From Ostrinia nubilalis (Eukaryota > Arthropoda > Insecta > Lepidoptera > Crambidae): 64,000 nt of DNA. The notes beneath the pieces are model-generated. The model made no database searches and had not been told where the DNA came from. It saw nothing but the letters and a program-made list of their open reading frames with translations. Shown here in pieces: positions 3,545 to 34,900 of the stretch. Both the position numbers and the translations under genes were made by a program. Numbering within the stretch: position 1 is the first letter of the stretch; each line of letters starts with the position of its first letter. Location: NCBI RefSeq assembly GCF_963855985.1, contig NC_087098.1:13846501-13910500 (forward strand), read 5' to 3'.

Positions 3545-6500
3545 CTGGAAATATAATGTTACCGATTAAGGTCAATTCTTTTACCAAAGATGTGAAGTAA
3601 AGGATTTGTCACACTGGAGCGATCTGCGGTCAGGTCAAAGTGAACACAGCCACATCATAATGTTATGAACAAAATTGTCCAGTGTGACAAAACTTCTGAG
3701 GATCTACTTCCTTTCCTACCTAATGAAATCGATATGTCAAGTTAATTAGAAAAAAATGTGGGTGCCAAAACGCGTAGACGTAGCGCATAGGTGCACGTGC
3801 ATTTACCTTCACCTTGATTTTCATTTCCGTACGTAGGTTTAATAGAAAAGAATGCTCGGAGTTTCTCCCTGGGCTGCAGACAATCTCCTAGGTATACGTC
3901 ATATTCCACGCAAACCACCTTCTCATCGAGTTTTCTCAACTCGACATTGTTCTTTTTGAATCGAGAAAACTTTTTCGCGATAATTTTGATTCTCGGAATT
4001 TCACTGATGTGGATGTTTTCTGCGAGGTACAGGCCGGAGTCCAATTTATCTGTAAAATCCATTTAAGTCATGTGAGAGAAAATTAAGAATAATACAAATA
4101 ATTAAGTCATTGAAAAGAAATATAAGTTATTTTAATCGATAAAAAATATTGCCAAACAAAGCAAACAAAGTTTTATGCAAAACGATTCCAGGACTTGTAT
4201 CTATAAACCTTTATCTTATCACGTAGACTATTGACTCTCGCTCACCTTTATCTTGGCTTATGTACTTATCAATTTCATCAGCATTATCGATATTTTGCCA
4301 CTGGGATCCCTCTGTGGTTTCTTCGAAGTCTGGCGCTGATACTTTTTTGTCCGACGTATATTGCGAACTATTTACTTTCGGTGAAGTGTTGCACAACACT
4401 TTCCGTAGTTCCTTCAGTTGGTTTATGGTTTCCGGAATGAGCGGGCTTAACGGGTCAAACCCGTACTGCTCTTGAAGGATATTCTGGTACTGGAAAATAA
4501 ATGAAATTTACACTCTGATCCCAGTCAGGAACCAATTCATATTTCGTCGCTTGCCTCTAACTGACGTAACTGACATTTTGCAAAATTTTCAGGCGATTAG
4601 ACAGATCGATTCGTCTTGCGAAATTGATTAAGATGGTGTAGATAGGGCATGCAATTCGGATATCCGGATATCCATATTATTCGGATATTCGCCACATTTA
4701 CTATTCGAATAGCATCTATATAATTATTCGGTTTTTTCGAACAATGCGAATTCGACTTTCCTATTAAAAACTTGTAAAAATATCTGACCGCAAACTACTT
4801 AATAAAACTTAAAACTATTAAAACTGCAGGAAAAAAGTTAGCGGTAAGGTTAGATGAATGGACAAGTGCGCGCTATCGCAGATATCCCTTCAAGTGCCAA
4901 CCAATATTCGCGAAAAAGGTTAAAGTGCCAGGCATAATTATGGTTTCCGATGGTGCTAGTGTTATGGTGTAGTTATCTCCTGTTGTAATGAGATTTTTTG
5001 TTCGCAGTAAATCAGCAGGAGTCCAGTGACTCAGTTGCCCTCAATGGTTTCTCAACTGTCCTGGAATCTACTAAGGAGATTCCTGACACTAGCTCTTTGC
5101 AGTCTGCTGAATAGGAAGCCTTCAATGGTCATGAGTTGTTGAACTGATGAGTTTGGATGATTTGAAATCCTGATTTGATATCCTTGTAGCGGAGTGTGTG
5201 GCTCTTTATTTCCTCTCTGACTGTGGGCAATGGCAAGTCCTGATCCTGATAGATGAGCCTGTTGCTGATATACCACGGGATTTGGTAAATCAAACGTATA
5301 GCTTTTGTCTGGAAGCGCTCGATTATGTCGAGATTGGAGTTGGCAGCTGTTCCCCACAGCTGTATCTCGTAGGTCCAGATAGGTTTAAGGATAGTTTTGT
5401 AGACCATCATTTTGCTACTAGTGTTCAGTTCAGCTGTGACTGGACTCCGACAAGCCACATCATGTTTCTTAGTTTGACATCTAGGTGCTTCCTCTTTGTC
5501 CATGCTTTCTCCAGGTTAGCCTGCGGTCCAAGTGCAAGCCCAGATACCTAACGTCCTCAGCGGCTCAGCCTGAGGTATTTGGATACCATTAAGTTTAACC
5601 GATGGGCAGGAGTTTCTTCTGAGAGTGAAGGTTACATGAACATGCATAGATTTTTCCCCGTTCGCTTTAATATGCCATGAATGGTACCATTTCTCCATTT
5701 CCGTCAGGCTTTCCTGGAGATAGAGTGAGGCCGTAACTGGATCGTCGTGTGTTGCCATTGTTACCGTGTCATCAGAAAAGGTTCCTGTGAATGTATGTGC
5801 AGTTGTTGGCAGGTCTGCGGTAAACAATAGGTATAGCACGGGCCCCAAGACACTACTCTGGGGTATACCGGACGTTATGTTGCATAGGGCAGAACAAGAG
5901 TCTCCAGATCTGACTTCAAAGCATCTGTCTTTCAAATACGACCTAAATATTTCGTAGAACGTACATGGGAGGTTCTGTTTCAGTTTGTACAAGAGCCCTT
6001 TATGCCAGACCTTGTCGAAGGCTTGACTTATGTCCAAGAACGCAGCTGAGCAGTATCGTTTTTTTCTAGTGCTTCTGAGATGATGTTTATGGTTCTGTGG
6101 ACCTGTTCAGTTGTGGAGTCTCTTTCCCGCAAACCAAATTTGTGTTTGAGGTATCAGATCACCGATGTGGGGCTTCATTCGTTTGAACAGTATTTTTTTC
6201 GAATACCTTCGATTTATTTTTCAAGTAGTTATTGAAGTTAGATGATTGTATTAAGCAAATTGATCCTTATTAAAATGATTATGGACAAAAAAGTGTTTGT
6301 TTTAATTTACATTATATTGAAAATAGCAGTATTCGAAAAAATCGTTTTATTCGAAGTATTCGAATACCATAAATTTTAGTATTCGAAATATTCGAATACC
6401 AATATCGAACGAATAATGCATGCCCTAGGTGTAGATAACTCAGTTTCGAAAAAAATGTCAGATACGTCAGTTAAATAGAGGCAAGCGACGATTTAACCGA

Positions 6501-15506: not shown

Positions 15507-16148
15507 GTAAGTTTTACACTAACGTATTTTTATGTAGCCTCCAAATAAAGTGCACTTACCTTCTAAATACTTAATTCATTAATTGAAGCGTAATAAGGGT
15601 GTTATGTGTGAACGAACTGTTTATGTAAGATTTTTACTATCGAGGCGTTTTGAAGCGTCTCAATGTGAAAGACAGTGAGTGAAAATGAAACTGAAAATAG
15701 CATTGTAAGTACATAAAGCTGCGAAAAAAGTCGATCTATTGCAAAAATAAGCACTTATGTGACAAAGGTTGAATTCCCAACAGAGGTATAGGGATTTAAT
15801 TCAAATGGAATCATTTTTAATTAATTTACTCAGTAATTATGGAAAACTGAAGGGAAATTGTGGATTAAATGGTAATGGTTGAAAAAAAATATAGGTACTT
15901 CACATAAATTAATCTCCGAATGTCAGCAAATCACATCAGAACGCGGCATCGTCTACATATTTTGGTTATTATTTTGTGTTTGTAAAATTTAGTTGGACGT
16001 GTTGTTTGAAATTAAATTACTGAGACATCAAAATTAACCCATAATACCTAATACATTAGATTAATAATAACTTTTACTGTAAAATTATTACTTTAGACAT
16101 GGATAAGATTTGAATTTGCATTTCATTAATTAAACTATTTTGTTTTAG
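15507..16148 (+). promoter_or_regulatory. Putative leader intron and regulatory region of the NACHT gene
   Basis: Two consensus donors lie upstream of the ORF (CAAAT/GTAAGT at 15507 and CATT/GTAAGT at 15705), and TTTTGTTTTAG at 16138-16148 is a good acceptor 32 bases before the ATG. The coding region is intronless, but a spliced 5' leader is plausible. The motif GTGAAAATGAAACT at 15679-15692 matches the vertebrate ISRE consensus GNGAAANNGAAACT exactly. Whether anything in a moth binds it is unknown. Confidence 0.35.
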
Positions 16149-16180: not shown

Positions 16181-19100
16181 ATGGATCAAATCACGGAAAA
16201 TCTTTTTACATCGTTGCGCTCAAAGAAAGGCGAGGACGAAAAATATCAAGAGGTGCTCGGATATTTAGACAGCGGAGCCAATCCTAATGCCGCTGATCCT
16301 AAAAGGAAGGATAACAGACCCTTGCACATAGCTGTGCAAAATAGTGATTCAAAAATCGTTGAACTCTTACTTGACAGGGGAGCTGACGTGACTTTGAAAA
16401 ATGGTCTCGACAAAAATCCATATGAGTTAGCCAAAGAATTACCTGAAGTCGATGAAGAAGTAGTAGCCTTACTACAAACAAAATTCGGGCAATTAAACAT
16501 CGTCTCGAATGAGGTTTCAAGAAAAATACAAGGCAAAAATCTTACCCACAGTAAAAAACAACTAGGTTTCGACAAAAGAGAGGGCACTGCTAGTGGTATC
16601 GACGGTCAGTTTTACGAATCAAAAATATTAAGTCTTATATTATTTCGATGCCTTACTGATGCGACAATCGAGTACTTTTATTTGGGTACGAATGTTAATA
16701 ATGTAGGAGCACTGGATGACGTCTGCTTGAGATATAAAATATATGGAGAGTCAAAGGACAGAATGCTCTTCATGCAAGCTAAACATAGACAACAAGACGG
16801 CATAGCAAAAAAAGTAATAACTTTAGACGATTTAAAAAACTCCAATGATTATAAGCTTATTAAATATTTTGAGAGTTATGAACAAATCAAAAACAAATTC
16901 AAAAGTAACAAAGATGACATCATGTTCAAAGGCTCCTACGAGGACGTAGATTGTGATTTTGTACTATTCACGCCTTCTGACAATATTATTGAAAGAAAAC
17001 ATAAAGCAGAAAACTCTATTTTGCGGGGCCACCGATTCGAAAAACTTTTTTGCTCTCGTAAAAATATAACATTTAGCAACACAAACGAAAATTTTCAAAT
17101 AAGCGATGTAGCATTACTTCAAAATTTAATTATATTTAAGCACGTTGAAGCTTTAGGTGAATTATTAAAGGCTTTTATCTTGACTGACAATGAGAAAACA
17201 TATTCTACTATGTTGAAAAAGGACAATATTGTACAAAAGTACCATGCCCTTTTGACACAAAAAGTAATCCATGTAGGTGCTATTGAACAAAAAATACTTG
17301 AAGAAAAAAAACCTAACTTAACAAATTTTGGTGAAGGAACTTCATCACAGTCTTCAATTCAGGAAAGTAAGGTTTCAGGAAAAGAAATTGAAAATGCAAA
17401 TCTAGTGGAAAAGTATCGAAAAGGAACTTTCCATAGCAGCTTCTTTGACGATGAAGATGGCTGTATGCGTTTATTGAGGGAAAAATTTTTTGAAAATAAT
17501 AACCCATCCCAAAAAGGTGAAGAAAAAAAACGAAAAGATAAAACTAATAAAAAAAGTTATGAAACTGAAATTGAGGAATTTAAATTGCAAAAAAAATCTT
17601 TCAAACTTCCTGTATCGTTCGGGAAGCTCGATCTGACACTCAAGAAAGGTAAGGAAAAAACCAGAATAGAATATTTAGTACAGACAATTATTATGTTGGC
17701 AAATATTGCCAAATATGAAAAAAAGAATGTAATCAGAATTGATAAAAATATTTTCTGTAAAAACAAAGAAGAAGAAAAACATGTTAATAAAGGATTTATT
17801 GATAACGAAGGTGGAATTGCAGGTTTAGTTGGTAATTTGCTGACTTTTGACAGTGAGACAGAAACTTATCAATTTCGCGATGTAGAAAAAGAAAATAAAA
17901 CACATGAATTGGAAGCAAATAGCAAACTTTTTTTAGAAGAACTAAATAAGCAATGTATAGAGCAATGTGAAGAGAAATGTAAAGATCAATGTAGAGAGCA
18001 ATGTGAACATAAATTAGATATATATCAATTTAGATTTGACATTGCCATAGACGACTTTCCAAAACTTGCTTTTTATTGTACCGAAGATGAAAAACTTAAT
18101 GCAAATGATTTTTTAAATAAATATTGGGTTTTAAGTAATCAATGCTCACAGAGTGAAATAGAAGATATTTTAAAAATGGAAATTGAGTCTCAATTGCGCC
18201 AAGAAAACAAAAATCGATTACTCCGAATACAATCACATGCAATTTTCTTAAAATTTCATGACCAAGTTCAAAAATGGTGGATGAAAAATAAAAAAGCTAA
18301 TTATAAAACCAAGATGTGTCAATACTATGAAAAAGCTAAAAAAGAAATAGTCGATAGCCCTATATTGTCTGTTTTAAATTTTATTATGTTAAACAGTATC
18401 AAAAAGAATCTCTTCAAATTTAAAAGCGATATTATTGATACATTAGGGTTACAAATATTTATGAATGATCCAAACACAAACGTGTTTAACATCACTGCAT
18501 CTGAAGGTTTTCTAACCATTATCAAATTAGCTCAGTTTTTCGAAAACCACGGAAACACTGCGTTTTTGGACTTTGAATATATTCTGGAAAATAAGTACTT
18601 TGAAGATATGAAATCGGAACTACAAACAACTGAGCTCGACACTTTCATATTCCTTCAAAAAAATCAGCAGAACACCCAAAACCTCTGCCAAGTTATTGAT
18701 ATTGTCAAGGAAAATAAGAAAAAGAAATGTTTTCTAGTGACTGAGAAAAAGATTGTTGATATCGTCAAATCTCAATGCAATGTCGAATGCCTTTGGCAAG
18801 ACGACAATATTTGCGACCTAAATTCTGTTTGTGATAGTGATGATGTGTCCAAAAATTGGACTCTTATTTTTCAAGAAGAAGAAGTCAAATTTAATAGAGT
18901 TATAGAAGAAGAATCAAAGAGATTAATTAATTCTCACATACTTTTAAAGCTTATAAAAGGAGAAAAAATTGAAATAGGTAATCCCTTAACAAATATAAGA
19001 TACAACGAGGTTAAACAATATTGCATTCCTCGTAATTTAGATCGCGGTGAAGAATTTATGATTAAATCTTTTAAAGATATCAACGAAAATGTGGTACTCA

Positions 19101-21295
19101 TCGTGGCAGAGCCTGGTATGGGTAAATCGGTATTGATGAACCAACTCGCTATTCAGACAAAAGAAATAGAACATGAATTTTCTGATCTCAGTTCGTGGAT
19201 ACTATATGTAAATTTAAATGACTACTCGTCTGAATTTTCAAAGTGGCCTAACGATAACATATCGAAAGAAGAAGCAATAAGATTTATTTGTAAGACTGCT
19301 ATAAATAAACTTTGCACAAACAATGGAACACAGAATATCGACAGAAGAACAAATGAAATAAATGCGTTCAAAATCAAAGTGGATGCAGGAAATAATGTGC
19401 AAGTAGAAAGTTTCATTAAGGACCCACTAGTCTCGTTTGAGTTGCGCCTGTTCATAGATTATTTAAACAGGGGAAATCTAATAATGATATTTGATGGGTT
19501 TGATGAAATCTGTCCACAATATGAAAAGAAAGTAATATGTTTACTAAAACATCTTACAAGAACCTTTCATCTACCATATTGTGAGTTGTTACAACCATTT
19601 GATCCTATGATCAATGTTAAAAACGTTATATCTTTGCTACAAAAAACAGAACCATCAACTTCGAAGACCTGTAATTGTCCTCGAATGGGTGCAAACCAGA
19701 ACCGCATATGGGTAACTACACGATCATACAATCATATCAAAAACGTTCTAGAAACGGAGCTGGGAAGAACTGGATTTACACTTCGCCCACTTTCGAAGCA
19801 TGAACAGACCATTTATTTAATGAAATATTTTGAAATACACTTTCGAATATCGGACTTGAAAAAAGAAGAAATAGACAACCTGAACATCTTTTTCGATTAT
19901 ATGCTTAATAGACTATCTGATGAAAGCCGACACATAACAATGGTAAGTGTCCCTCTGTACACTGTTTATGTCACACTAGTGAGCTTTTTTCATAACAAAT
20001 TTTCTGCAAATCCATTAAATTGTTACTCAGATGATGAAGTGAGAGATTTGAAAAATAAATGTGCTGATGTTTACTCAGTTTTGACTAGTTATGGACCAGT
20101 TTTCGAACGACAGTCAAATGTTCGTGCACTTACTGCAGTATCAGAAAATCCACTTCACCTATACATGGCAGCGGAATATTTTTACAGCCAAATCAAATAC
20201 AATGAGAGTGAAGACCAAGGTTATGATAAATGGGATATTAACACAGAATCGTTCAATTTATTCAAGAAATTCCTTGACATCAAATTCAAAAAAATACTTT
20301 TTGAACAAAAAAACTATGTGGATCCAAGCAAGTCTGCTATCGAAGAGACTTTGGAAAATCAAAGGTTAAAATTTGTTGAAGACCATAAAAAAATGGCCCT
20401 GTGCGCAATATTTAACCGTATCGATTTGGAACGGTTACTACCTGAAAGTGTTTTAGACGATATAGACAAAATCATGATACAAATAAACACTGGGAAGGAA
20501 AAAACTGGTATCATAGTAACAGTCATCGATAAAGTTCCAAGATTTGTACATTTAGTCTTTGCAGAATATTTTGCTATCGAGTATATATGTGATTTGCTAA
20601 TTAAAAGTTCGAATTCTGAAATGGGTAGTCCTGATATAGAAGAACTATGGCGTTTTATAATGAATATAGTGCTATACAAAGCTAGTGGGGGCGTCCGTAC
20701 ATTCTTTGATCATAAACTAAGAAACGATTCTGGGTTTATGAATGTAATAAATTCAGAGCAAAATAAAAAGATAGTTTTCAAATCATTCATACAACAGGGG
20801 AAAGAAAACCAAGTAGTTCCGGAAGGTTTTAATTTTTCAATTCTCAAAACATCCCTGAATATTGCTGTTGAGGAAAATTTATTAGATATACAAAATTATA
20901 TATTTGAGTGTATTCAATGTAATTTGAATGAAGAGAATATTGATGAATTTACGGAACTCACATCCAATAGTTTACTTCTTTTCAGTGCCCTTGGATCTAA
21001 CAACGATGACCTAATACATAGATTTAAACAATGCTTAAATAATATATGGGATGATGATGATGATAAGTTTATTGACTTTGTTTTTCCGGCGTTTGTAAGG
21101 AAAATACTTCCATTCAAAATAAATCTACAAAATTTCATGTCTATATGGAGAATGGTGCAACGCATGATACCCCAACTTGCTGACGTGGACATCGATACAG
21201 CAACTGAAATTACGCCAAATATGAGAAGTGCTCTCTCAGATTACATAAAATTATTTTGGGAACTGGTTACTGATACATATAACTCTCAAAGTTAG
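16181..21295 (+). CDS. NLR-like STAND protein: ankyrin - PD-(D/E)XK nuclease - NACHT
   Basis: A single 1,704-codon ORF without introns. Seen: ankyrin repeats at about 23-100 (RPLHIAVQ, IVELLLDRGADV). Next, about 135-320, is a candidate PD-(D/E)XK nuclease like the DUF4297/Cap4 type, with E146 (GQFYE), D179/D180 (GALDDV) and Q199-A-K201. A Lys/Glu-rich linker and helical region follow (about 390-960), with a Cys ladder at 592-608. The NACHT NTPase has Walker A 976-983 (AEPGMGKS, Ala where Gly is usual), Walker B 1100-1109 (LIMIFDGFDE), a sensor at 1179-1181 (TTR) and the NACHT-tail motif FVHLVFAEYF at 1455-1464. The last 240 residues look helical, without LRR or WD repeats. Known: NACHT proteins oligomerise on ligand sensing; bacterial Avs proteins pair such nucleases with STAND modules. 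Inferred: a cytosolic immune sensor that cleaves nucleic acid. Start chosen: first ATG, CGATAATGG context. Confidence 0.9.
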   Translation: MDQITENLFTSLRSKKGEDEKYQEVLGYLDSGANPNAADPKRKDNRPLHIAVQNSDSKIVELLLDRGADVTLKNGLDKNPYELAKELPEVDEEVVALLQTKFGQLNIVSNEVSRKIQGKNLTHSKKQLGFDKREGTASGIDGQFYESKILSLILFRCLTDATIEYFYLGTNVNNVGALDDVCLRYKIYGESKDRMLFMQAKHRQQDGIAKKVITLDDLKNSNDYKLIKYFESYEQIKNKFKSNKDDIMFKGSYEDVDCDFVLFTPSDNIIERKHKAENSILRGHRFEKLFCSRKNITFSNTNENFQISDVALLQNLIIFKHVEALGELLKAFILTDNEKTYSTMLKKDNIVQKYHALLTQKVIHVGAIEQKILEEKKPNLTNFGEGTSSQSSIQESKVSGKEIENANLVEKYRKGTFHSSFFDDEDGCMRLLREKFFENNNPSQKGEEKKRKDKTNKKSYETEIEEFKLQKKSFKLPVSFGKLDLTLKKGKEKTRIEYLVQTIIMLANIAKYEKKNVIRIDKNIFCKNKEEEKHVNKGFIDNEGGIAGLVGNLLTFDSETETYQFRDVEKENKTHELEANSKLFLEELNKQCIEQCEEKCKDQCREQCEHKLDIYQFRFDIAIDDFPKLAFYCTEDEKLNANDFLNKYWVLSNQCSQSEIEDILKMEIESQLRQENKNRLLRIQSHAIFLKFHDQVQKWWMKNKKANYKTKMCQYYEKAKKEIVDSPILSVLNFIMLNSIKKNLFKFKSDIIDTLGLQIFMNDPNTNVFNITASEGFLTIIKLAQFFENHGNTAFLDFEYILENKYFEDMKSELQTTELDTFIFLQKNQQNTQNLCQVIDIVKENKKKKCFLVTEKKIVDIVKSQCNVECLWQDDNICDLNSVCDSDDVSKNWTLIFQEEEVKFNRVIEEESKRLINSHILLKLIKGEKIEIGNPLTNIRYNEVKQYCIPRNLDRGEEFMIKSFKDINENVVLIVAEPGMGKSVLMNQLAIQTKEIEHEFSDLSSWILYVNLNDYSSEFSKWPNDNISKEEAIRFICKTAINKLCTNNGTQNIDRRTNEINAFKIKVDAGNNVQVESFIKDPLVSFELRLFIDYLNRGNLIMIFDGFDEICPQYEKKVICLLKHLTRTFHLPYCELLQPFDPMINVKNVISLLQKTEPSTSKTCNCPRMGANQNRIWVTTRSYNHIKNVLETELGRTGFTLRPLSKHEQTIYLMKYFEIHFRISDLKKEEIDNLNIFFDYMLNRLSDESRHITMVSVPLYTVYVTLVSFFHNKFSANPLNCYSDDEVRDLKNKCADVYSVLTSYGPVFERQSNVRALTAVSENPLHLYMAAEYFYSQIKYNESEDQGYDKWDINTESFNLFKKFLDIKFKKILFEQKNYVDPSKSAIEETLENQRLKFVEDHKKMALCAIFNRIDLERLLPESVLDDIDKIMIQINTGKEKTGIIVTVIDKVPRFVHLVFAEYFAIEYICDLLIKSSNSEMGSPDIEELWRFIMNIVLYKASGGVRTFFDHKLRNDSGFMNVINSEQNKKIVFKSFIQQGKENQVVPEGFNFSILKTSLNIAVEENLLDIQNYIFECIQCNLNEENIDEFTELTSNSLLLFSALGSNNDDLIHRFKQCLNNIWDDDDDKFIDFVFPAFVRKILPFKINLQNFMSIWRMVQRMIPQLADVDIDTATEITPNMRSALSDYIKLFWELVTDTYNSQS

Positions 21296-21308: not shown

Positions 21309-21314
21309 AATAAA
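21309..21314 (+). promoter_or_regulatory. Poly(A) signal of the NACHT gene
   Basis: AATAAA lies 14 bases after the TAG stop, giving a very short 3' UTR if used. Other AT-rich candidates follow. Confidence 0.5.
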
Positions 21315-28900: not shown

Positions 28901-31900
28901 GGCTGTGACATACGGACGGACAGACAGACAGACATGACGAATCTATGAGGGTTCCGTTTTTTGACATTTGGCTACGGAACCCTAAAAAGGGTTGGACCTA
29001 TCCTACTAATTTATGTCTGTTACCCTTTCACGCTAAATATTATTTGCTACCCTTCAAATGGCACTCGCCGCCCGCGCCCGGCACGGCGTACGTCATCGAG
29101 GACACGGCGCGCTGCCACTCCTAAAACACGCGGCGGTATAAACCCGAACCCCTTTCGAAATAGACAACTGACTACATAAAAAATTCACCTATCCTACTAA
29201 TATTATTTCTGTTACCATTTCACGCTAAATATAATTATTTGCTACCCTTCAAATGGCTATCGCCGCCCGCGCCCGGCACAGCGTACGTCATCGAGGACAC
29301 GGCGCGCTGCCACTCCTAAAACACGCGGCGGTATAAACCCGAACCCCTTTCGAAATAGACAACTGACTACATAAAAAATTCACCTATCCTACTAATATTA
29401 TTTCTGTTACCCTTTCACGCTACATATATTTGCTATCCTTCAAATGGCACTCGCCGCCGGCGCCCGGCACGGCGTACGTCATCGAGGACACGGCGCGCTG
29501 CCACTCCTAAAACACGCGGCGGTATAAACCCGAACCCGTTTCGAAATATACAACTATCTGAGAAACTGACACTACAAAAAATGGCTGTGACATACAGACG
29601 GACAGACAGACAGACATGATGAATCTATAACGGTTCCGTTTGTTGCCATTTGGCTACGGAACCCTAAAAAGGGTTGGACCTATCCTACTAATTTATGTTT
29701 GTTACCCTTTCACGCTAAATATATTTGCTACTCTTCAAATGGCACTCGCCGCCCGCGCCCGGCACGGCGTACGTCATCGAGGACACGGCGCGCTGCCACT
29801 CCTAAAACACGCGGCGGTATAAACCCGAACCCCTTTCGAAATAGACAACTATCTGAGCAACTGACACTACAAAAAATGGCTGTGACATACGGACGGACAG
29901 ACAGACAGACATGACGAATCTATAAGGGTTCCGTTTTTTGCCATTTGGCTACGGAACCCTAAAAAGGGTTGGACCTATCCTACTAATTTATGTCTGTTAC
30001 CCTTTCACGCTAAATATAATTATTTGCTACCCTTCAAATGGCACTCGCCGCCCGCGCCAGGCACGGCGTACGTCATCGAGGACACGGCGCGCTGCCACTC
30101 CTAAAACACGCGGCGGTATAAACCCGAACCCGTTTCGAAATATACAACTGACTACAAAAAATATAGCACCTATCCCACTAATTTATGTTTGTTACCCTTT
30201 CACGCTAAATATAATTATTTGCTACCCTTCAAATGGCACTCGCCGCCCGCGCCCGGCACAGCGTACGTCATCGAGGACACGGCGCGCTGCCACTCCTAAA
30301 ACACGCGGCGGTATAAACCCGAAACCGTTTCGAAATAGACAACTATCTGAGCAACTGACACTACAAAAAATGGCTGTGACATACGGACGGACAGACAGAC
30401 AGACATGACGAATCTATGAGGGTTCCGTTTTTTGCCATTTGGCTACGGAACCCTAAAAAGGGTTGGACCTATCCTACTAATTTATGTTTGTTACCCTTTC
30501 ACGCTAAATATATTTGCTACCCTTCAAATGGCACTCGCCGCCGGCGCCCGGCACGGCGTACGTCATCGAGGACACGGCGCGCTGCCACTCCTAAAACACG
30601 CGGCGGTATAAACCCGAACCCCTTTCGAAATAGACAACTATCTGAGCAACTGACACTACAAAAAAGGGTTGGACTTATCCTACTAATTTATGTCTGTTAC
30701 CATTTCACGCTAAATATAATTATTTGCTACCCTTCAAATGGCACTCGCCGCCCGCGCCCGGCACGGCGTACGTCATCGAGGACATGGCGCGCTGCCACTC
30801 CTAAAACACGCGGCGGTATAAACCCGAACCCGTTTCGAAATAGACAACTGACTACAAAAAATATAGCACCTATCCTACTAATATTATTTCTGTTACCCTT
30901 TCACGCTACATATATTTGCTATCCTTCAAATGGCACTAGCCGCCCGCGCCCGGCACGGCGTAGGCCATCGAGGACACGGCGCGCTGCCACTCCTAAAACA
31001 CGCGGCGGTATAAACCCGAACCCGTTTCGAAATAGACAACTATCTGAGCAACTGACACTACAAAAAATGGCTGTGACATACAGACGGACAGACAGACAGA
31101 CATGATGAATCTATAACGGTTCCGTTTGTTGCCATTTGGCTACGGAACCCTAAAAAGGGTTGGACCTATCCTACTAATTTATGTTTGTTACCCTTTCACG
31201 CTAAATATATTTGCTACTCTTCAAATGGCACTCGCCGCCCGCGCCCGGCACGGCGTACGTCATCGAGGACACGGCGCGCTGCCACTCCTAAAACACGCGG
31301 CGGTATAAACCCGAACCCCTTTCGAAATAGACAACTATCTGAGCAACTGACACTACAAAAAATGGCTGTGACATACGGACGGACAGACAGACAGACATGA
31401 CGAATCTATAAGGGTTCCGTTTTTTGCCATTTGGCTACGGAACCCTAAAAAGGGTTGGACCTATCCTACTAATTTATGTCTGTTACCCTTTCACGCTAAA
31501 TATAATTATTTGCTACCCTTCAAATGGCACTCGCCGCCCGCGCCAGGCACGGCGTACGTCATCGAGGACACGGCGCGCTGCCACTCCTAAAACACGCGGC
31601 GGTATAAACCCGAACCCGTTTCGAAATATACAACTGACTACAAAAAATATAGCACCTATCCCACTAATTTATGTTTGTTACCCTTTCACGCTAAATATAA
31701 TTATTTGCTACCCTTCAAATGGCACTCGCCGCCCGCGCCCGGCACGGCGTACGTCATCGAGGACACGGCGCGCTGCCACTCCTAAAACACGCGGCGGCAT
31801 AAACCCGAACCCCTTTCGAAATAGACAACTGACTACAAAAAATATAGCACCTATCCTACTAATTTATGTCTGTTACCCTTTCACGCTAAATATATTTGCT

Positions 31901-34900
31901 ACCCTTCAAATGGCACCAGCCGCCCGCGCCCGGCACGGCGTACGTCATCGAGGACACGGCGCGCTGCCACTCCTAAAACACGCGGCGGTATAAACCCGAA
32001 CCCGTTTCGAAATAGACAACTATCTGAGCAACTGACACTACAAAAAATGGCTGTGACATACGGACGGACAGACAGACAGACATGACGAATCTATGAGGGT
32101 TCCGTTTTTTGCCATTTGGCTACGGAACCCTAAAAAGGGTTGGACCTATCCTACTAATTTATGTTTGTTACCCTTTCACGCTAAATATATTTGCTACCCT
32201 TCAAATGGCACTCGTCGCCGGCGCCCGGCACGGCGTACGTCATCGAGGACACGGCGCGCTGCCACTCCTAAAACACGCGGCGGTATAAACCCGAACCCGT
32301 TTCGAAATATACAACTATCTGAGCAACTGACACTACAAAAAATGGCTGTGACATACGGACGGACAGACAGACAGACATGACGAATCTATAAGGGTTCCGT
32401 TTTTTGCTTTTTGGCTACGGAACCCTAAAAAGGGTTGGACCTATCCTACTAATTTCTATTTATTACCCTTTCACGCTAAATATATTTGCTACCCTTCAAA
32501 TGGCACTAGCCGCCCGCGCCCGGCACGGCGTACGCCATCGAGGACACGGCGCGCTGCCACTCCTAAAACACGCGGCGGCATAAACCCGAACCCGTTTCGA
32601 AATAGACAACTATCTGAGCAACTGACACTACAAAAAAGGGTTGGACCTATCCTACTAATTTATATTTGTTACCCTTTCACGCTAAATATAATTATTTGCT
32701 ACCCTTCAAATGGCACTTGCCGCCCGCGCCCGGCACGGCGTACGTCATCGAGGACACGGCGCGCTGCCACTCCTAAAACACGCGGCGGTATAAACCCGAA
32801 CCCCTTTCGAAATAGACAACTGACTACAAAAAATATAGCACCTATCCTACTAATATTATTTCTGTTACCCTTTCACGCTACATATATTTGCTACCCTTCA
32901 AATGGCACTCGCCGCCCGCGCCGGGCACGGCGTACGTCATCGAGGACACGGCGCGCTGCCACTACTAAAACACGCGTCGGCATAAACCCGAACCCGTTTC
33001 GAAATAGACAACTGACTACAAAAATGGCACTCGCCGCCCGCCCCCGCCACGGCGTATGTCATCGAGGACACGGCGCGCTGCCACTCCTAAAACACGCGGC
33101 GGTATAAACCCGAACCTCTTTCGAAATAGACAACTGACTACAAAAAATATAGCACCTATCCTACTAATATTATTTCTGTTACCCTTTCACGCTAAATATA
33201 ATTATTTGCTACTCTTCAAATGGCACTCGCCGCCCGCGCCCGGCACGGCGTACGTCATCGAGGACACGGCGCGCTGCCACTCCTAAAACACGCGGCGGTA
33301 TAAACCCGAACCCGTTACGAAATAGACAACTATCTGAGCAACTGACACTACAAAAAAGGATTGGACCTATCCTACTAATTTCTATTTATTACCCTTTCAC
33401 GCTAAATATAATTATTTGGATTTGAAGTACACAATGGATTTCGTTTAAACTTTACAGTAGGTATTATCGTTTTACATCAGACTGACATGTAGGCGTATTC
33501 ATAACGATATTTCTGTGACAAATGTGTGGAAAAACTCACACATTATGTGAAAAGGAAAGATGGAGGGATGTATTGTTTCTTACTCGTTTAACATAAATAA
33601 ATAAACCGTTTGGTAGGCATAAAGAAAATTTGAGACCCAGGGAAAATATAGGATAGTTTTTATAAATATTGACGCATTTCAATGGTCAAACTGAAATATA
33701 ACATTTATGTAAGAATTAAGAATATGGTTTTTAGCAGAACCGTGTTTATCCCATCGGTTAAGCTTTCAACCACCATTTAGTAAGAATAAAGAACTCAGTT
33801 AACAAGGTATTTTAGTCACAACCTATTACGGTATTAGAATATAATCCACAACCATACTGACCTCTGTATCAGTCTTAGCGTCGGCGTCTCCTATGGACCT
33901 AACGAGCTCCTTCGAAATCGCCATTAAGAGGTAATTAGTAATTTTTGCTTTGGTTTCAACAGTCACTTCTCTGCCGCAGACGGGGGTTATGTCTTTGCAG
34001 AGTCTCGTCAGATCGTCGTCTGCGGTGTTATGTATTCTATCGAACAGGTCTTCGATCAGTTGGCTGACTAGCTGGCTCCTCATGGACGGGCAGGAGCACC
34101 TGGCGTCCGAGGTGATGTAGCTCATGCTGTGATGCATCCTCCCATAGTCGGTCTTCTTTGGCACGGCCGTATATATTGAATAGCCCTCGTCTATGTATTC
34201 CGTTCTCTCCGGCTGGAGTTCCACTCGCGACGCGTGGTACGACTGCCGCATAGTCTCACTCCTCAATTCCTCTAACTCCTCAGTTTTTATCGACAACTCG
34301 TGGCTGAGAGTTTTGATTTTTTCGTCACATTTCCTTTTGCACTGTTGCAATGCTTTCTGAGTTATAGCTAGCTGCTTTTCCAGAGATTCCACCTGAGAAC
34401 ACACGTCTTCTTAGAAGGTCTTCCATGACACCGCTGCATGCATATTTACATTCTTCCGCCATGCATTTTGTGAGCCCAACAATAACACCGTCGATTCCGA
34501 GTGGGTAAAGCCAACATGCGTCGCGTTAACGAAACAAACAAAGCGCAAACATTCAAAGCGTTAGCAAAAAGAGTGCCAAAGCATCAACACATTCAAATTT
34601 TAACTACTGTTTAATCCGAAACCATAGTTATCTAGTCATATTTTTAATCTTCTAATTAACCTTAATTAAACAAGGCATGAAAGTTCGTCAACAATTAGAC
34701 GAAACATAAATCGGTCTGTTTTTATGTTCATTTTGGCAGTTATAAATAGGTATATTTAAAATCATGCGGAGCTTAAAATTCATTCAGTTAGATGTCATTG
34801 TACAATTAAGTGGTTATTAAGATTTTTTTTCAAAAACTAAATCTTTGATATCTCAATGTTAAGACCTTTCGCTAGTTAATTAGAAGATTGTAATTCAGTT

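Follow-up and report, generated by a model that had tools for sequence, protein, structure and literature searches.

An NLR-like protein of the moth Ostrinia nubilalis with a putative PD-(D/E)XK nuclease domain ahead of its NACHT NTPase, and relatives in arthropods and Rickettsiales

In the Avs proteins of bacteria a single chain holds an effector followed by a STAND NTPase, the effector being a nuclease in some of them, and their TPR-type sensor binds phage terminase or portal. The nucleases of the Cap4 and Lamassu type are partnered with SAVED or SMC proteins. The pairing of REase effectors with STAND NTPases in bacterial systems is described in the available excerpt of PMC8195603. Drosophila is reported to be without NLRs, and a 2024 survey (PMC11508797, in its excerpted part) presents arthropod NLRs as lacking an N-terminal effector domain. 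Among the literature matches listed, no title or abstract opening described an insect nuclease-NACHT protein. Here we analysed a stretch of 64,000 nucleotides from Ostrinia nubilalis (contig NC_087098.1, in the following "the window"), in which the product of one gene is probably an NLR-like (STAND) protein of arthropods, with a putative PD-(D/E)XK nuclease close to the Cap4/Lamassu type as its effector. A conserved nuclease-like effector ahead of a NACHT would give arthropod NLRs an N-terminal effector and, if the reading is true, animals including crop pests and a mosquito would possess a bacterial-style defence that destroys nucleic acids.

The gene sits within a 16.7-Mb contig of the 495-Mb genome, and its features are collected in Table 1. 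The initial annotation had described one intact open reading frame, which was borne out by the 1704 codons read from the ATG with zero internal stops. The Ostrinia furnacalis protein LOC114356505 (1704 aa) is 98% identical to it and a relative in Loxostege sticticalis (1718 aa) shows 55–59% identity. When the whole genome was searched with the protein, the gene itself was the one match at E ≤ 0.001 (15 scored candidates). A genome search for NACHT domains matched nothing and is uninformative on paralogues, since it missed the open reading frame at 16181–21295 as well. The candidate splice acceptor, read from the sequence, would mean that a non-coding 5' exon precedes the ATG. It is hardly conceivable that the gene represents bacterial contamination of the assembly. 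Its single long exon and its bacterial relatives would agree with such an origin, but the size of the contig, the matching or similar lengths of the O. furnacalis and Loxostege relatives, and the candidate splice acceptor and poly-A signal all argue against it.

Table 1. Positions in the window and basis of assignment for the gene and the parts of its product
Feature	Position	Strand	Basis
Candidate 3' splice acceptor (AG behind a T-rich tract)	16131..16148	+	32 bases before ATG; read from sequence
Single-exon CDS	16181..21295	+	1704 aa, from ATG, no internal stop; P0001 of equal length, 98% identical
Layout of the 1704-aa protein: ankyrin, PD-(D/E)XK-like, middle region, NACHT, helical arm			
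Ankyrin repeats, about residues 2–105	16184..16495	+	Pfam Ank 1.3e-6; model; ankyrin fold matches
PD-(D/E)XK-like nuclease domain, about residues 130–290	16568..17050	+	predicted topology, conservation, weak similarity to Cap4/Lamassu nucleases
E146, motif I glutamate, helix 1	16616..16618	+	36-row alignment
D179-D180, motif II	16715..16720	+	36/36 rows
Q199-A-K201-H202, motif III (QxKH)	16775..16786	+	Q and K in 36/36 rows; H in 35/36
Middle domain, about residues 725–917	18353..18931	+	P-loop NTPase-like, without Walker A
NACHT NTPase, about residues 960–1200	19058..19780	+	PF05729 6e-7 in C-terminal part; NLRP3/NOD2 fold matches
Walker A, AEPGMGKS 976–983	19106..19129	+	
Walker B, LIMIFDGFDE 1100–1109	19478..19507	+	
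TTR 1179–1181	19715..19723	+	
Helical arm after NACHT, about residues 1201–1620	19781..21040	+	aligned with NLRP3/NOD2 helical domains
FVHLVFAEYF 1455–1464, arm motif common to relatives	20543..20572	+	
AATAAA, candidate poly-A signal	21309..21314	+	close behind stop; read from sequence

Ankyrin repeats had been proposed for the N-terminus, and both Pfam, with its best Ank stretches within residues 28–84, and the AlphaFold2 model, with repeat helices within residues 2–105, confirm them. In this model (residues 1–500, mean pLDDT 74.5) the core of the following nuclease-like domain consists of helix 139–159, strands 163–169, 181–187 and 193–200, helix 226–242 and strand 256–263. The predicted order helix-strand-strand-strand-helix-strand equals the alpha-beta-beta-beta-alpha-beta arrangement of PD-(D/E)XK enzymes. 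E146, D179/D180 and Q199-x-K201, which had been named as the nuclease-like motif, stand exactly at these positions: in the model E146 is located on helix 1 and D180 just ahead of strand 2, while strand 3 ends with Q199-x-K201. The pLDDT is 74–90 in most of the ten-residue blocks that make up the core, and 54 in the block 201–210, which begins with K201. Regarding the proposed PD-(D/E)XK fold, the predicted topology thus fits, while the comparison with solved structures gave ankyrin matches only. The model used in these fold searches included the repeats, and since ankyrin matches filled the results no match to a solved nuclease structure was obtained. Profile searches of PDB sequences with the nuclease-like domain matched no solved nuclease either.

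Our third search for relatives, carried out with a reordered profile, scored 7,999 candidates, of which 27 proteins reached E ≤ 0.01. The named ones come from O. furnacalis, Loxostege, Helicoverpa, Trichoplusia, Heliothis, Culex, Planococcus, Periplaneta, Blattella, Diploptera, Ignelater and Daphnia, and the remainder are metagenome proteins. The family is therefore spread over several arthropod groups: moths, Culex, a mealybug, cockroaches, a beetle and Daphnia. Alignment A4 comprises 26 rows; P0004 (ankyrin only), P0019 (cut) and P0023 (without the domain) are outside both A4 and the 20-row alignment A6, which further omits P0001 and P0022 as near copies, P0009 and P0018 with the domain missing or cut, and P0027 and P0028 with a changed motif. 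We extended A6 to 36 rows by P0022 and 15 bacterial rows from 14 genomes. The latter were chosen from the 23 matching genomes described below; loci that overlapped, near copies, and pieces that were short, split or interrupted were omitted, and L035 was dropped. Of the 21 non-bacterial rows, eight are metagenome proteins (P0003, P0005, P0015, P0016, P0017, P0020, P0022, P0026).

Only five columns of the 20-row alignment are invariant, namely G142, D179, D180, Q199 and K201. As four of these five belong to the proposed active site, the motif is not due to chance. The same four residues are present in all 36 selected rows (21 arthropod or metagenome and 15 bacterial), a count from which the damaged-motif rows P0027, P0028, L026 and L035 were excluded. 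Among the named lepidopteran relatives, E146, D180 and K201 are kept in all four whose sequence includes the domain (O. furnacalis, Loxostege, Helicoverpa, Trichoplusia), as the initial annotation had anticipated; the fifth named one, Heliothis P0009, has a gene model without the domain region. The excluded rows show what damage occurs: D179 is changed to V and D180 to E in P0027, D179 to G and K201 to Q in P0028, D180 to Y in L026/L049, and L035, on a long branch, has E at position 179. In addition L038 is without either motif-I glutamate. Pseudo-nucleases occur in the PD-(D/E)XK superfamily, and the damage in P0027, P0028, L026 and L038 would agree with a fold that is retained for nucleic-acid binding or as a scaffold, the protein signalling without cutting. 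We regard this as unlikely, however, because the motif makes up four of the five constant columns and is constant in the 36 selected rows, and because the motif-I glutamate is relocated rather than lost in 35 of the 36.

This relocation concerns positions 146 and 171, which read E/N in 19 of the 36 rows including the O. nubilalis protein (E146), Q/E in 16 and A/N in one. A single motif-I glutamate at either position, never at both, is found in 35 rows. All 16 Q/E rows, and no others, lie on one side of a branch with support 99/96, and since the E/Q split follows one tree branch we count it as one evolutionary event. The aligned residues show that one glutamate is retained, predicted to lie either on helix 1 or on strand 1. 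Inspected by eye, the fetched Cap4 proteins have YQ together with E on strand 1, as in the Q/E subtype.

The spacing of the motif had been likened to that of DUF4297/Cap4-type nucleases. In favour of a likeness, it shares the order YQ/YE..D..QxK and the spacing with Cap4/DUF4297 (PF14130) and Lamassu LmuA/LmuB nucleases, and weak profile matches connect them. In a PADLOC scan of 20 domains nine models were matched, seven of them nuclease or DUF4297 effectors; the best E-values were 1.7e-4 for LmuA (four members), 8.3e-4 for LmuB DUF4297, 0.0018 for Effector endonuclease (CBASS) and 0.0023 for SAVED_PDDEXK. The other two models were a 2TM effector (0.011) and RmrA (0.053). The O. nubilalis domain itself had no PADLOC match, and in a repeat scan four of ten members matched the N-terminal part of models and six did not match. 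Using hhalign, the family aligned to six Cap4_nuclease proteins, taken from 6 of 249 genomes, with an E-value of 4.7e-4 (probability 32.5%), and the non-bacterial rows alone did so with 2.8e-4 (40.9%). The alignment is colinear through YE/YQ, D and QxK. Nine decoys, one reversed and eight column-shuffled, gave E-values of 0.38–0.98, so that the profile match appears weak but specific. Membership in DUF4297, by contrast, was not borne out. PF14130 was absent from Pfam results for the O. nubilalis protein, its nuclease piece, eight arthropod or metagenome pieces and seven bacterial pieces, and also among the 25 Pfam families, out of 65, listed for 26 members; neither Pfam nor NCBIfam scans of the nuclease-like domain gave a nuclease match. 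Because Pfam is silent and PF14130 is not reached, we treat the group as a new family near Cap4/DUF4297 and not as a DUF4297 member. Compared with the Cap4/Lamassu nucleases it forms a subfamily of its own, marked by DD and QxKH and without PF14130, and its fusion partner is NACHT instead of SAVED or SMC. The same silence of Pfam and the lack of a sequence match to a solved structure could also be taken to mean that the domain is no nuclease, but a new alpha/beta domain using E..DD..QxKH for a different function such as metal or nucleotide binding. This is very improbable given the predicted topology and spacing, the nuclease or DUF4297 identity of seven of the nine PADLOC models, which matched at the right segment, and a Cap4 profile match above the decoys.

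The second half of the protein was said to hold a complete NACHT module, and all four of its motifs (AEPGMGKS, LIMIFDGFDE, TTR, FVHLVFAEYF) were indeed found; TTR is presumably a sensor-type motif. Only the extent given, residues 960–1480, proved too narrow: in the structural comparison module and helical arm together span about residues 894–1619. The whole protein reaches 25.8 bits with PF05729 against a cut-off of 26.7 bits, and its C-terminal part alone exceeds the cut-off with 29.9 bits. According to Foldseek the best fold matches of the NACHT half are NLRP3 and NOD2. Compared with the animal NLRs NLRP3, NOD2 and NLRC4, however, Pfam detects no CARD/PYD and no LRR, and a nuclease-like domain is found instead; by Pfam, the protein lacks an LRR sensor or a death-fold effector and is not a canonical NLR. 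The middle domain is possibly a decayed second NTPase, and AVAST5 is among its structural neighbours (VIA list).

In layout the protein resembles Avs3 (8dgc), Avs4 (8dgf) and AVAST5 (9nc9), a putative nuclease being, by prediction, fused ahead of a STAND NTPase. Avs4 and Avs3 are also among the Foldseek matches listed for the NACHT half, where the Avs matches are long, loose (rmsd over 30 Å) and mixed with dynein and p97. It differs from Avs in that it is an animal protein, begins with ankyrin repeats and has no TPR match in Pfam; moreover the Avs3 and Avs4 superpositions are loose and non-specific and no Avs model is among the PADLOC matches. Its C-terminal arm was matched to NLR helical domains. 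We call the protein Avs-like by layout and do not file it as Avs.

We infer an immune setting, enzymatic activity and gating by the NTPase, and the earlier suggestion of an animal immune nuclease is plausible. In the mechanism that we propose, the NACHT switch would rest closed and bound to ADP. When either the ankyrin repeats or the helical C-terminal part sense a trigger, ATP binding and oligomerisation would follow, and the clustering would bring the nuclease domains together. E146, D180, Q199 and K201 would then cut DNA, or less likely RNA, with the help of a metal ion. The target might be the nucleic acid of an intracellular invader or the infected cell's own.

The family also has bacterial members. 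Six relatives used as queries against genome contigs yielded four loci, three of which (L003–L005) matched the NACHT part alone and were rejected as relatives of the whole protein. The fourth encodes a 1875-aa protein on a contig of Candidatus Midichloriaceae. A family profile built from residues 505–1704 of the window's protein and 24 relatives aligned to it over 999 columns, from the nuclease through the NACHT, with 12% identity and a pairwise E-value of 1.7e-37. The same genome holds further relatives of parts of the 1875-aa protein. Adjoining the Midichloriaceae nuclease-NACHT gene we observed a gene for ankyrin repeats and a patatin-like phospholipase (L002:2-2836, + strand). The domain profile matched 23 of 262 genomes in the order of this bacterium at E ≤ 0.01 (best 7.1e-57), some of these matches being weak or interrupted by stops. 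In 15 of 20 genomes with a locus the carrying contig is over 1 Mb, which makes arthropod contamination unlikely. Three of four large bacterial proteins join the domain to ankyrin repeats and NB-ARC, one of them also to OTU and one to TPR; the fourth has a NACHT score of 26.6 bits, just under Pfam's 26.7. The frame of genome G237 (L036:5856-14000, − strand) is very large and encodes OTU, the nuclease domain of this family and NB-ARC between two sets of ankyrins. As the bacterial relatives partly carry OTU, ankyrin or TPR modules, their older role could be that of effectors against hosts.

We analysed whether the 15 bacterial sequences form one clade within the 36 rows. Constraining them to do so lowers the log-likelihood by 78.3 units (AU p = 0.0003). 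The well-supported branches force at least two changes between the labels bacteria and arthropod. Relative to the 99/96 branch, the bacterial rows L036, L017 and L038 fall together with those of the moth and Culex. A single bacterial clade is thus rejected, and the simplest account of the label changes is transfer between bacteria and arthropods, without any direction being implied; judging from the tree, horizontal transfer between arthropods and Rickettsiales appears to have spread the family. Possible, although held only tentatively, is the wider reading that the protein is a complete STAND immune receptor armed with a nuclease, an arthropod counterpart of Avs, that its nuclease-middle-NACHT cassette crossed between arthropods and their intracellular Rickettsiales at least twice, and that the catalytic glutamate, always a single one, shifted between helix 1 and strand 1. 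If true, host and symbiont would hold the same weapon. Because Rickettsiales share the family, an exchange of immune machinery between host and symbiont can be put to a direct test.

The placement of L036, L017 and L038 with moth and Culex on one side of the 99/96 branch would also agree with the moth protein being a domesticated symbiont effector, descended from a Rickettsiales protein active within arthropod cells and used by the host for something other than pathogen sensing, for example for countering reproductive manipulation or selfish elements. The presence of ankyrin and NB-ARC in three of the four large bacterial relatives, with one OTU and one TPR, resembles symbiont effectors (PMC12445526 and PMC7750005, as excerpted) and adds to this possibility, which we nevertheless consider fairly unlikely. 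NACHT and nuclease motifs are both retained in moths, mosquito, cockroaches and others, which speaks against domestication, and for another shared gene the parsimony argument in the excerpt of PMC5062602 favours the direction from arthropod to phage WO.

That source, in its available part, describes a gene of prophage WO that combines NACHT, ankyrins and a further module and whose NACHT had relatives in animals alone, and names Bombyx mori, Culex and Daphnia among the arthropods with NACHT relatives exchanged with prophage WO (PMC5062602). Judging from the species named there, the NACHT of prophage WO may be that of the moth family. The ankyrin neighbours are alike, but no nuclease domain is named in the excerpt of PMC5062602. 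The other shared protein of phage WO, gwv_1093, was tried as a relative of the nuclease-like domain and rejected (hhalign probability 0.1, E 0.77). Structures of CinB are deposited in the PDB, whereas the moth-family profile matched no PDB sequence. CifB/CinB of Wolbachia and their kin are nonetheless comparable as PD-(D/E)XK nucleases that belong to modular proteins of Rickettsiales, in part together with ankyrin and OTU (PMC12445526, excerpt).

Further collections were searched with individual members. Viral contigs contained no relative of the moth protein. Plasmids gave no match to P0026 or the Midichloriaceae protein and one match to the moth protein, in its ankyrin part. The Culex protein found 13 phage records, matched at the ankyrin ends of the query, and genome contigs searched with P0026 alone gave no relative. 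P0026 itself is a divergent nuclease-NACHT protein of the Q/E type with 1326 aa, encoded on a metagenome contig of 143,784 bases. Its owner could be bacterial, in which case the labels of the clade test would shift.

With respect to its surroundings, the gene has a G+C content of 32% (29% at third positions) compared to 38% for the window. A genome search for Cap4_nuclease gave one weak match (E 0.49) in a frame that we read as a LINE and rejected. The window also contains a reverse transcriptase piece at 5516–6037 (− strand; PF00078, 1e-14), a mobile-element remnant. At 29938–31993 (+ strand) we noticed three adjacent open frames that are perhaps the gag region of a retroelement; the zinc-knuckle match in one of them is very weak (E 2.8).
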